NCBI GenBank assembly: GCA_021846565.1
Contig: JAJZWS010000008.1
Coordinates: 1-64,000, forward strand
From: Bacillota bacterium
Lineage (GTDB): Bacteria > Bacillota > Sulfobacillia > Sulfobacillales > JAIMBI01
DNA length: 64,000 bases
Direction: 5' to 3'
Shown here: positions 6,403-17,222 of the stretch, piece by piece
Layout of the letters: the number at the start of each line of letters is the position of its first letter
Position numbering within the stretch: the stretch's first letter is position 1
Translations under genes and position numbers: made by a program
Notes under the pieces: generated by a model
Told to the model about the DNA's origin: nothing
The model's database searches: none
Seen by the model: only the letters and a program-made list of their open reading frames with translations

Positions 6403-6517
6403 GCCGCACCGCCTCTCGGCGGCGATTCTACTCTACCCGTCCACAGGCGCCAAGACGGCGGAGCGCACTCCGCCGTCTTTCGCGCCGTCCATTCGCTGCC
6501 ATGCCCGCGTTCGTGGC

Positions 6518-6688
6518 CTAAGGGGTCGTGCTGTTGTCCCTGCATTCGCAGTGGGCGCAACTGCACGTGCTGCCGCAGCTGCAATCGTGGTCGCACTGGT
6601 CGCCACGGCAGTTGGTGCAGCAACAGTGCCCGGCATCCTCCGTCAGGGTTGCGTCCGTCGTCGCCATCGTCCGGGGTCTGGTCATCAT
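6518..6688 (-). CDS. Cysteine-rich metallothionein-like peptide
   Basis: A 56-residue peptide with 11 cysteines packed between residues 22 and 49, in a pattern C-C-C-x2-C-x4-C-x3-C-x-C-x3-C-x-C-x2-C-x-C with interspersed His and Asp. Such clustering is the hallmark of metallothioneins, which chelate Cu(I), Zn or Cd. I chose the ATG at 6688 because GGAAGGCGGCG precedes it; the ATG at 6667 has no ribosome site. It lies 87 bases downstream of copZ on the same strand, which supports a role in copper storage or buffering. It does not show the exact spacing of SmtA or MymT as I remember them, so homology is uncertain; a structural zinc peptide remains possible. Confidence 0.6.
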   Translation of the reverse strand: MMTRPRTMATTDATLTEDAGHCCCTNCRGDQCDHDCSCGSTCSCAHCECRDNSTTP

Positions 6689-6775
6689 CTCGCCGCCTTC
6701 CGCTTCGTAGTCGCACGCGGCTAGACTGCACCGCTTTGGCGAAAACATACGAGCCGGGCGCGCGGCGCCAGGTCT

Positions 6776-6991
6776 TTAGGCGACGTGGTAGCCGGCGTCT
6801 TCGATGGCCCGCGCCAGCGCCTCCGGGGTCGCCGCTGCCGCGTCGTAGGCCACGTGCGCCCGCTCTTCTTCGAGCGACACCGTGACCGTCTTGACTCCGG
6901 GCACCTCTTCCAGCGCCTCGGTCACGTTCATCACGCAGTGGTGGCACGTCATCCCCGTCACCTTGATGTCGGTTTCGACCAGGTTGGCCAT
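6776..6991 (-). CDS. copZ: Copper chaperone CopZ, heavy-metal-associated domain
   Basis: A 71-residue heavy-metal-associated domain protein. GMTCHHC (residues 13-19) holds the two Cu(I)-binding cysteines, and the rest follows the beta-alpha-beta-beta-alpha-beta pattern (VTEALEEVPGVKTVTVSLEE, ALARAIEDAGYHV). It hands Cu(I) to P-type ATPases or repressors in the cytosol. No copA or csoR is adjacent. Ribosome site GGGAGGG precedes ATG 6991. A cysteine-rich small gene follows and a divergent HxlR regulator precedes it. Confidence 0.92.
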   Translation of the reverse strand: MANLVETDIKVTGMTCHHCVMNVTEALEEVPGVKTVTVSLEEERAHVAYDAAAATPEALARAIEDAGYHVA

Positions 6992-7037
6992 AGTATCCCT
7001 CCCGTTCGCGGCTTGCTCGCTGGCCGCACTGGAGGTC

Positions 7038-7043
7038 ATTATA
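7038..7043 (-). promoter_or_regulatory. Probable -10 box of the copZ promoter
   Basis: A perfect TATAAT on the minus strand lies about 45 bases before the copZ start codon. No good -35 is found at 17 bases, which is common for promoters that depend on an activator or on an unusual spacing. Inferred only from the sequence match. Confidence 0.45.
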
Positions 7044-7098
7044 CCCCGTGGCCGAGCACATGGTCCCTATACGCTCCTTCCTATCGATGCACTACTGA

Positions 7099-7135
7099 TG
7101 CACGTCGTGCAATCCCCGTGCGCTGGTGATATGAT
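7099..7135 (+). promoter_or_regulatory. Palindromic operator and -10 box before the HxlR gene
   Basis: TGCACG-T-CGTGCA at 7099-7111 is a perfect palindrome, followed by a -10-like TATGAT at 7130-7135, about 40 bases before the HxlR start. At 17-base spacing the -35 position would overlap the palindrome. GATGCAC also occurs twice, at 7086 and 7097. This is the expected place for autoregulation by the HxlR protein, possibly also controlling copZ. Confidence 0.5.
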
Positions 7136-7175
7136 GAGGAGGGCCAGGGGGGACGCCCAACTAGGAGGCATCGCG

Positions 7176-7529
7176 ATGGCACTGGAGGACAAGCCACACC
7201 GCGCGGCGGAGGCGGCATTGCACAACGAACACTGTCCCGTAGCCCTGACGGCGCGGCTCATCGGGGACCCGTACATCCTCATGATCGTGCGCGACTTGGC
7301 CAATGGCACCCTGCGGTTCGGTTCGCTGTCCGACTCCGTCAGTGTCAACCCGCGCACTTTGACGGCCCGTCTCCGACGCATGGAGCAGGACGGGCTGGTC
7401 GTGCGGCACATGTTTGCGGAAATTCCCCCGCGCGTGGAGTATACGCTCACAGACAAGGGACGCGCGCTGTTGCCCGTGGTCGAGGCGCTCCGCGCCTACG
7501 GTGACGCCTGGCTGGTGCCCCCCGTCTGA
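7176..7529 (+). CDS. HxlR-family transcriptional regulator
   Basis: A 117-residue winged-helix regulator of the HxlR family. The typical start is seen as CPVALTARLIGDPYILMIVRDL, with the conserved Cys (about residue 24) that some members use as a redox or electrophile sensor. It is followed by the recognition helix region (SVNPRTLTARLRRMEQDGLV) and the wing (PPRVEYTLTDKGRAL). AGGAGG at 7163-7168 precedes ATG 7176. It is transcribed away from copZ and 35 bases ahead of the lactonase-like gene, so the latter is the likely co-transcribed partner. Confidence 0.92.
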   Translation: MALEDKPHRAAEAALHNEHCPVALTARLIGDPYILMIVRDLANGTLRFGSLSDSVSVNPRTLTARLRRMEQDGLVVRHMFAEIPPRVEYTLTDKGRALLPVVEALRAYGDAWLVPPV

Positions 7530-7564: not shown

Positions 7565-8362
7565 ATGAAGCTTTGGATCTTGCCCGTCGGCACCTTTGAT
7601 GCCGACGTTGCCACGCTGACGCCCCAGGACCGCTCAGGGAAGCGCACAGACTGCCCGGTCTACGCGTATCTCCTAGACATGGGGGAGCGCCGGCTCTTGT
7701 TTGACACCGGTTGCTCGCGCGCGCTCATGATGGACCCGAAAACCATTTTGGGAGCGGGCGTCGCGTCGCTGACCCCGATCATGCATCCGGAGCGGGACTA
7801 CATCACAGCCCGCCTGGACAGGCTGGGCATCGCCCCTTCGCACATTGACATCATCGCCACGTCGCACATGCATTTTGACCATGCCGGTGCCAACAGGGAC
7901 CCGGCGTGGTCTGGCGCAGAGTTTTGGGTTCAGCGCGCCGAGTGGGAGGCCGTGACGGCCACCCCCCGCCACTATCCCGACGCGGGGTGCCAACCGCCGC
8001 CTGGTGCCCCGGTGCGTCTCGTGGACGGCGACGTCCCGGTGGCCCCCGGCGTCACTCTGGTGGCCACGCCCGGGCATACGCCCGGCCATCAGTCGCTCAT
8101 GGTGCAGTTTCCTGGGGGTGGCGGGGTGTTCATCACCAGCGACGCCGTATACACCCGGTCGCACTACGACCCCGACCATGTGGGGGCCGCCGTGGACCGC
8201 GACGCCAGTGCCCGGTCCGTCGAAAAGATCCAGGCGCTGTGCCGCCAACACGGCCTCGTCCCCTTCTTCAGCCACGATCCCGACCAGGCGCGCGTTGAAG
8301 GCTGGCGTCTGGCGCCGGACGCGTACACAGACGGGCGGTTTCCGGGTCCCCGTCGCATCTAA
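7565..8362 (+). CDS. Metallo-beta-lactamase-fold hydrolase, AHL-lactonase-like
   Basis: 265 residues of the AttM/AiiA-type branch of the metallo-beta-lactamase superfamily. The zinc motif is HMHFDHAG at 101-108, with ATPGHTPGHQSLMV carrying the next histidine, SDAV the bridging Asp and a late FSHD histidine. Members hydrolyse N-acyl homoserine lactones or other lactones. It sits directly after the HxlR gene and before an acyl-CoA synthetase, so a fatty-acyl or lactone substrate is plausible. Quorum quenching cannot be claimed without assay. Confidence 0.85.
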   Translation: MKLWILPVGTFDADVATLTPQDRSGKRTDCPVYAYLLDMGERRLLFDTGCSRALMMDPKTILGAGVASLTPIMHPERDYITARLDRLGIAPSHIDIIATSHMHFDHAGANRDPAWSGAEFWVQRAEWEAVTATPRHYPDAGCQPPPGAPVRLVDGDVPVAPGVTLVATPGHTPGHQSLMVQFPGGGGVFITSDAVYTRSHYDPDHVGAAVDRDASARSVEKIQALCRQHGLVPFFSHDPDQARVEGWRLAPDAYTDGRFPGPRRI

Positions 8363-15404: not shown

Positions 15405-17222
15405 TCATCCCTCCCTTCTGGGCGCGCGCTTGCTCGCGCTGATTTCCTGAAACAACTGACTGATCTCCGCCGCCACCACCGGGTCGTCGGGGTCAGCCAC
15501 CGACTTTAGGTGCCGCCACTCGCGTTCCCGCCACTGGGTTTTCACCTGTTGGGCCAGCTCCATGACCAAGTCCCCCGAGACGGGCCACGGGACCGCCGCC
15601 GCCGCCGTGACCAGTTCCTGCGCCTCCGGCGGCAACCGCACCAGCCAGGTGGCCAGCGACGCACCGCCCTGCTCGACCAAGGCGGGCCACTCGGCACGAA
15701 TCGCCTCCCAACGGGGATCTCGACAGAGTTCGGGAAGCGCGGCCAAAACCCCTTCCATGCGGTCGGGAAATTGTATCAAGGACGCCAGCAAATTGACCTC
15801 CACATCCCGCGGGCCAAGATTTACCTCTGAACGGCGCATATTATGCCGGGTTTTTACCGAATTATTCCCGACCGGCCCTTGTTTCCCGCTGGAGCGCTGT
15901 GATAGAATCTTTTGCTCCACACCCCACGCCCTCTCCAGCAAAGCCGCATACTCCGTCCGCTCCACGGGGTCGGTCATGGCGTCCAACAGCTCCCGCATCT
16001 CGCGGACCGCCCGCGCCTTGGCCTCGGGCTGGACACGCACCGACCCCTGCCCATCCCGAATGCGGCGGGCCAGATATGGCATGCGCGCGCCGACGGCCGC
16101 CACCAGGGCCTCGGGCCCTTGCGCACTCACAAGCTCGTCGGCGTCCTTGGCCGGGTGGTAGTCGACCGACGAAACCGCGAGACCCTCCGCTGCGAGCACC
16201 ATGAATGCCCGGCGCACCGCCTCCTGCCCGGCCGCGTCCTGGTCATACGCACACACGACTTCATTTGTAAAACGCCTCAGATACCGAACATGTTCCACCG
16301 TCAGCGCGGTCCCGAGCGCCCCCACCGCCTCGGACAGGCCGACCCGGTGCATGGCCAGCACGTCCATGTATCCCTCGACAATGATGGGCGCCCGTCCCTG
16401 AGACCACGCCGCGCGCGCCCGGTCGGCCCCGTAAAGAATGCGGCCCTTGTGATACACCGGAGTCTCGGGCGTGTTCAGGTACTTGGGCACGCCCGCGTCG
16501 TCCACCACCGCGCGTCCGCCGAAGCCCACGACGCGTCCATCCGGATCGCGAATGGGAAAGGTGACCCGGCCCCTAAGGCGGTCATAAGCCCCACGGTCCC
16601 GCTCCACGGCCAACCCCGCCTCAACGACGTCTGCCACCGGATACCCCTGCTGGCGGAGGCTTCCGAGCAATCCCTCCCACTCATCGGGCGCCCACCCCAG
16701 GCCAAAGCCGTCCACCATCGACGCGGGAAGACCCCGACGCTCCAGGTACGCGCGGCCCGCCTGGCCAGCGCTGTCTGCCAGTGCGTGGCGAAAATACTGC
16801 TGGGCCGCCGCCAGCACCGCCAACAGGGCGGTGCGACGGCCGCCCCCGTGCCCCGTCCGATCCGGCAAGGCAATGCCCGCGCGGTCGGCCAGCTCGGCCA
16901 GCGCTTCGGGAAAGCTCTTGCCATCGCGCCGCATGAGAAACGTGAACACGTTGCCGCCCACCTGGCACCCGAAGCAGTAAAACAACTGCCGCGCCGAGTC
17001 CACGCTGAACGACGGCGACTTTTCGGCGTGAAAAGGACAAAGCCCCCAAAGCTTTTGGCCTCGCCGACGCAAGGTCACGGTTTCACCAATCACGGCGGCA
17101 ATATCGGTGGCGTCGCGCACGCGGTCCACCGTCGCCGCCCCCGAACCGTCGTCTGTTCGCACCCTATTCACCACGCCCCTGATTCGCGCTCGTCCATCCA
17201 GATTCCTGCTGGCCGACGTCAC
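15405..17222 (-). CDS. dnaG: DNA primase
   Basis: Synthesises RNA primers for replication. 605 residues from a GTG at 17222; later GTGs at 17174, 17171 and 17162 fit the normal family N-terminus better, so the true start is uncertain. The zinc domain is CPFHAEKSPSF with YCFGCQVGGN, the TOPRIM domain is PIIVEGYMDVLAMHRVG and VVCAYDQDAAGQEA, and a helicase-binding domain follows at the C-terminus. Followed by rpoD in the same transcript. In related genomes this pair adjoins ppdK, but here about 9.7 kb of accessory DNA lies between. Confidence 0.97.
   Translation of the reverse strand: MTSASRNLDGRARIRGVVNRVRTDDGSGAATVDRVRDATDIAAVIGETVTLRRRGQKLWGLCPFHAEKSPSFSVDSARQLFYCFGCQVGGNVFTFLMRRDGKSFPEALAELADRAGIALPDRTGHGGGRRTALLAVLAAAQQYFRHALADSAGQAGRAYLERRGLPASMVDGFGLGWAPDEWEGLLGSLRQQGYPVADVVEAGLAVERDRGAYDRLRGRVTFPIRDPDGRVVGFGGRAVVDDAGVPKYLNTPETPVYHKGRILYGADRARAAWSQGRAPIIVEGYMDVLAMHRVGLSEAVGALGTALTVEHVRYLRRFTNEVVCAYDQDAAGQEAVRRAFMVLAAEGLAVSSVDYHPAKDADELVSAQGPEALVAAVGARMPYLARRIRDGQGSVRVQPEAKARAVREMRELLDAMTDPVERTEYAALLERAWGVEQKILSQRSSGKQGPVGNNSVKTRHNMRRSEVNLGPRDVEVNLLASLIQFPDRMEGVLAALPELCRDPRWEAIRAEWPALVEQGGASLATWLVRLPPEAQELVTAAAAVPWPVSGDLVMELAQQVKTQWREREWRHLKSVADPDDPVVAAEISQLFQEISASKRAPRREG

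Follow-up and report, generated by a model that had tools for sequence, protein, structure and literature searches.

We identified a gene for a 55-residue, cysteine-rich peptide within a 64,000-nucleotide stretch of DNA (referred to as 'the window'), which, as judged from its sequence, founds a new metallothionein-like family that is absent from both Pfam and NCBIfam. We consider it rather probable (at about 0.6) that the peptide is a metallothionein made in the forespore, which would bind several soft metal ions, likely Cu(I), and serve as a metal buffer or store of the spore. Expression in the forespore, binding of metal, identity of the metal and physiological role are all features that we infer. 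The elements of the locus to which we refer in the following are:

6452-6479, minus strand: strong hairpin 3' of the peptide gene, a possible transcript end without a T run (from folding)
6518-6685, minus strand: metallothionein-like peptide gene, 55 residues plus stop (open reading frame, genus-shared ATG, dN/dS and family alignment)
6542-6625, minus strand: 11-Cys core CCCx2Cx4Cx3CxCx3CxCx2CxC (pattern match, invariant Cys columns)
6693-6701, minus strand: probable ribosome-binding site GGAAGGCGG (conserved in the genus alignment)
6722-6750, minus strand: putative forespore sigma-type promoter GTATG-N17-CAGTCTA, located between copZ and the peptide gene (de novo motif, genus conservation)
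6776-6991, minus strand: copZ-type copper chaperone of 71 residues, upstream of the peptide gene (PF00403, E 1.3e-19)
7038-7043, minus strand: TATAAT box of copZ, identical throughout the genus alignment and separate from the element of the peptide gene
7176-7529, plus strand: HxlR-family regulator, divergent from copZ (PF01638, E 4.4e-22)

The gene encodes MTRPRTMATTDATLTEDAGHCCCTNCRGDQCDHDCSCGSTCSCAHCECRDNSTTP. Its open reading frame starts, in the longest form, at 6748, and 6688 and 6667 represent further alternative starts; since the ATG at 6685 is the sole start common to all five genus copies, where it is preceded by the conserved GGAAGGCGG, the length of the peptide is taken to be 55 residues. 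A sequence-only reading of the same DNA had described eleven cysteines within 28 residues, encoded directly downstream of a copper chaperone and facing an HxlR regulator: the open reading frame with its core, the copZ-type gene on the same strand and the divergent regulator gene are all present. The good ribosome site that it likewise reported is found for copZ, whereas the peptide's own site is only fair in the window (it reads AAGGAGG in other genera). The peptide gene is real and under strong purifying selection, with dN/dS within the genus amounting to 0.06-0.09 for the entire gene and to 0.00-0.04 for the core alone. Cys-rich frames on the antisense strand were rejected as shadows of the peptide gene. 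The region with the hairpin that follows the gene folds with -42.4 kcal/mol (z -3.0), and a terminator scan of the peptide/copZ region yielded no T-tract terminator.

When 42 genomes of the order were screened at the DNA level for the 11-Cys pattern, with up to one mismatch tolerated and the reversed pattern serving as the control, the exact pattern was found in 24 of them, every match having 0 mismatches, while the reversed pattern matched in none of the 42; its recurrence is thus far beyond chance. A profile search adds three genomes, which brings the family to 27/42, and uncovers variants such as MAKHCCCTACQTGACGQDCTCSQGATNCSCSTCNCSQG, in which the middle loop is longer by two or three residues. 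The search for the Cys pattern in related genomes, which had been put forward as a check, came out in favor of a conserved family. In the alignment of the 27 members, the 11 cysteines are the only invariant columns, and identity to members outside the genus drops to 29-43%. Several relatives with near-complete genomes lack the gene, which is therefore an accessory trait.

In the rest of the class, outside the order, there is one real copy (genome G109); a second pattern match there, in G117, was rejected as a poly-Cys (TGC) repeat artefact. Sampling beyond the class covered about 1,200 genomes from three phyla (∼400 each): about 400 genomes from the window's own phylum added nothing new, 397 from the phylum of a Pseudonocardia genome contained no family copy, and 399 from the phylum of an Acidithiobacillus provided nothing convincing, the one match being partial, located inside a 178-residue frame (E 0.0015) and rejected. 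A plasmid collection gave no match to the Cys pattern, and of the 120 matching stretches in a viral collection, those that were read all turned out to be poly-Cys (TGC) repeat frames and were likewise rejected. With the G109 copy as the only one outside the order and the phylum samples adding no other, the family is limited mainly to one order, whose members form spores.

Within the genus, each of the five copies of the peptide gene has copZ as its same-strand neighbor (for the copZ-type gene of the window, the best NCBIfam models are CopZ families, with scores below cut-off), and the HxlR gene lies near copZ in four of them, the two being separated by an inserted ORF in G003. This context is kept only within the genus and does not describe the family at large: in most relatives outside the genus the peptide gene stands alone beside unrelated genes. 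In two genera it adjoins genes for EPSP synthase and a polysaccharide deacetylase, in others glycoside hydrolase 31 and CtaB/COX1 genes are nearby, and in one further genus molybdenum hydroxylase genes are adjacent. Genes of ∼780 codons upstream of several copies were considered as copper ATPases and rejected, as they encode glycoside hydrolases of family 31. Directly 3' of the HxlR gene of the window (7565-8362, plus strand) lies a gene for a metallo-beta-lactamase-fold protein, which is conserved together with HxlR in the genus and most resembles lactonases of the AiiA type (NF045699 with E 3.6e-49, not reaching the cut-off of the model). A 2-phosphosulfolactate-phosphatase-like gene, which is matched in two frames and is probably frameshifted, is located 218-852 nt downstream of the peptide core on contig C52 of G002 (L038).

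Two lineages beyond the genus place the peptide gene among copper genes. In G012 and G030 it is the last in a run of copA, copZ, CcdA-like, SCO1/TlpA and DUF4396 genes (with the CcdA-like and copA assignments in G012 made by reading the sequence), and in G109 it comes after a cupredoxin gene and has an HMA ATPase, a two-component system and a CsoR-like frame (the last assigned by eye) no more than about 5 kb away. An HMA gene is found within about 5 kb of the peptide gene in these two lineages and in none elsewhere beyond the genus. Together with copZ in 5/5 genus copies, these clusters uphold the link to copper genes that had been claimed from the window. Copper-linked contexts number three among about 12, for which the estimated chance is about 2e-4, given a rough background rate and contexts treated as independent. 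The copper clusters of G012 and G030 (L198/L208) are near-identical, although the genomes belong to two genera, which may reflect horizontal transfer or bin mixing; G030 carries a second peptide copy, of its own type, elsewhere in the genome. A separate observation concerns an HMA-domain frame (L255, G000:C51:1972-2148) with one in-frame TGA at the first Cys of CxxC (MG-TGA-SGC) and a P-type ATPase directly downstream. Similar HMA-domain frames with one in-frame TGA occur in G002, G003, G012, G015, G029, G030 and G033, the NCBIfam model UxxU_metal_bind is related to them, and the L255 frame is a probable selenocysteine metal-binding protein.

A recurrent two-box element was first noticed by side-by-side comparison of the regions upstream of the peptide genes. 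An unsupervised two-box search in 27 such regions returned GCATAA-N15/16-GCACnCTA, which is equivalent to GCATA-N17/18-CANNCTA, with a log-likelihood of 131 compared with 44 ± 2 for 12 dinucleotide-shuffled sets. The element is common to most of the family, the copy in G109 having a spacer that is one base longer. When four genus copies of the element are aligned, 69% of its columns are invariant, as compared with 11% just upstream; between the element and the start codon, conservation is just as high (72%), in keeping with a leader that includes a ribosome site. The family motif fits the sigma-G consensus of B. subtilis (GNATA with CAWAMTA; PMC3416734), with degeneracy at positions 3-4 of the -10 boxes, and does not fit those of sigma-E and sigma-K (PMC3416734); the consensus of sigma-F is GTATA with GGNAANAMTR (PMC3416734). 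A high-scoring promoter-like site at position 15867 of the window lies inside a dnaG-like ORF and was judged incidental.

SASP genes are present in 28/28 family-bearing genomes. A weight matrix trained on the peptide promoters only, when applied to 740 kb of G018, marks 21 sites that precede a gene having a ribosome site, compared with a mean of 6.7 and a maximum of 13 for 20 permuted matrices, and three of the ten annotated downstream genes are sporulation genes, encoding the germination protease GPR, a SASP and YtxC. A second G018 contig that was scanned showed no clear enrichment of promoter sites. When 1.1 Mb of G018 was compared with 0.79 Mb of G008, the element turned up before both members of four homologous gene pairs (25 permuted matrices: mean 0.6, maximum 3), and three of these four encode a SASP, YtfJ/GerW and YIEGIA. 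In G008, the element also precedes genes for a D-Ala-D-Ala carboxypeptidase and a PBP1A-type protein; as annotation in G008 covered genes selected by visual inspection, only the count of pairs constitutes a fair test. At a score of 6, the peptide-promoter matrix recognizes 9 of 30 SASP upstream regions versus 5 of 114 for control genes. Conversely, a matrix trained on SASP genes does not recognize the peptide promoters, and the main SASP promoters differ from these in the -35 box. Taken together, the sequence evidence indicates that the peptide gene is likely controlled by a forespore sigma factor, for which sigma-G and sigma-F are alike possible.

The same type of promoter also precedes other genes. 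Two small Cys-rich frames of 52 and 63 residues follow it in G008 (L359:9502-9657 and contig C14 near 23095) and possibly encode further forespore metal-binding peptides. A gene for a PF04020 four-helix membrane protein is located after a forespore-type promoter in both G018 and G008 (L311:15885-16217 and L372:18098-18433).

We propose that a sigma factor of the forespore, sigma-G and possibly sigma-F as well, would read the peptide gene from GTATG-N17-CAGTCTA, while read-through from the copZ promoter may add peptide during vegetative growth. The 11 Cys thiolates, grouped in CCC and CxC clusters, would hold several soft metal ions together as a single cluster inside the spore compartment, the bound metal being most likely Cu(I), with Zn(II) as the alternative. 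The preference for copper comes from the two further lineages in which the gene belongs to copA-copZ-SCO1 or cupredoxin clusters. The peptide may then buffer or store metal in dormancy, or prevent redox damage caused by it, and CopZ-type chaperones would be its likely exchange partners. It is tempting to speculate further, if only tentatively and at somewhat less than even odds, that the peptide represents the first bacterial spore metallothionein, which would provide a protected Cu(I) pool or a copper shield and thus be the forespore counterpart of Csp3.

Co-transcription with copZ, as assumed in the sequence-only reading, can be at most a second route because the peptide gene has its own conserved promoter. 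The position of this promoter, between copZ and the peptide gene, also argues against a copper-induced metallothionein of vegetative cells, which would be co-transcribed from the copZ promoter and exchange Cu(I) with CopZ and CopA. Such a peptide would be consistent with copZ as same-strand neighbor throughout the genus copies, with the invariant TATAAT, with the lack of a T-tract terminator in the region, and with the copper clusters in two further lineages; most relatives, however, are devoid of copper neighbors, and we regard this explanation as unlikely. Somewhat less probable still appears a spore peptide that acts as a zinc/cadmium metallothionein or buffers thiol redox state, for which the copper neighbors would be incidental: the best PDB matches are indeed zinc/cadmium metallothioneins (wheat Ec-1 and Cd7-MT-2) and many copies stand alone, but three lineages carry copper genes independently, an association having the low rough chance given above.

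Spore coats are known to contain structural proteins rich in cysteine, and transcription of the coat genes depends on sigma-E or sigma-K in the mother cell. A disulfide-linked structural protein of the spore that binds no metal would have precedent among these coat proteins, but the promoter lacks the match to a mother-cell consensus, and the invariant CCC and CxC clusters are spaced as in a metallothionein, so that we consider such a protein very improbable. The family, present in about half of the order's genomes, is compact and has no name in the standard libraries. Should the peptide indeed be a forespore metallothionein, spores may possess a dedicated metal-thiolate store, built on a Cys scaffold of which one half is spaced like the vertebrate MT beta domain, a likeness that apparently arose by convergence. 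The handling of copper and zinc by dormant spores then becomes a directly testable question. Established families of bacterial metallothioneins are few, to our knowledge sporulation has been linked to none of them, and a search of the open-access literature retrieved no description of the present peptide family.

Apo-metallothioneins do not fold. In the broad sense, metallothioneins are small, Cys-rich proteins with CC/CxC clusters, and with its CCC and three CxC motifs, invariant in 27 members, a metallothionein reading of the peptide is well supported at the level of sequence. The window peptide matches no model of Pfam or NCBIfam (E 1), and at E 10 the 27 members give sub-threshold Pfam matches only, which are led by two metallothionein families, Metallothio_11 (PF02066; 4 of 27 members, best E 0.049) and Metallothio_Euk (PF12749; 3 of 27, best E 0.1), neither of them matched by the window peptide itself. 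Against the PDB, the family profile returned four chains, all of them metallothioneins (wheat Ec-1 with E 0.015, and three mammalian MT-2 chains with E 3-4), which align to the second half of the family. The spacing CxCx3CxCx2CxC in this half is the same as in the MT-2 beta domain and in Ec-1. The vertebrate and wheat proteins are, however, eukaryotic, do not start with CCC, and match at E 0.015 to 3.8, and we read the likeness as the result of convergence and not of homology.

SmtA/BmtA (PF02069) resemble the peptide in being small, Cys-rich, bacterial and presumed to bind soft metals, but their Cys spacing is different; the PF02069 profile matches 0/27 members at E 10, and SmtA is absent among the PDB matches of the family profile. 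The claim that the peptide is of a new metallothionein-like type, distinct from SmtA, is thus sustained. MymT of mycobacteria is likewise a small bacterial metallothionein of Cu(I) type, linked to copper resistance (PMC7558416). The window peptide has no match in NCBIfam, a library that may lack a MymT model, and there is no phylogenetic overlap in the 397 genomes sampled from the phylum of a Pseudonocardia.

Csp3 of B. subtilis is a Cys-lined Cu(I) store that is raised in sporulation under sigma-K in the mother cell and may, as has been proposed, supply CotA, a laccase of the spore (PMC9484137). Csp proteins are four-helix-bundle chains with a Cys-lined core, whereas the peptide has 55 residues only and no Pfam/NCBIfam match. 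A folded bundle produced in the mother cell under sigma-K thus contrasts with a short peptide behind a forespore-type promoter. Csp3 is nonetheless its nearest functional analogue, being a Cys-based Cu(I) store that is tied to sporulation.
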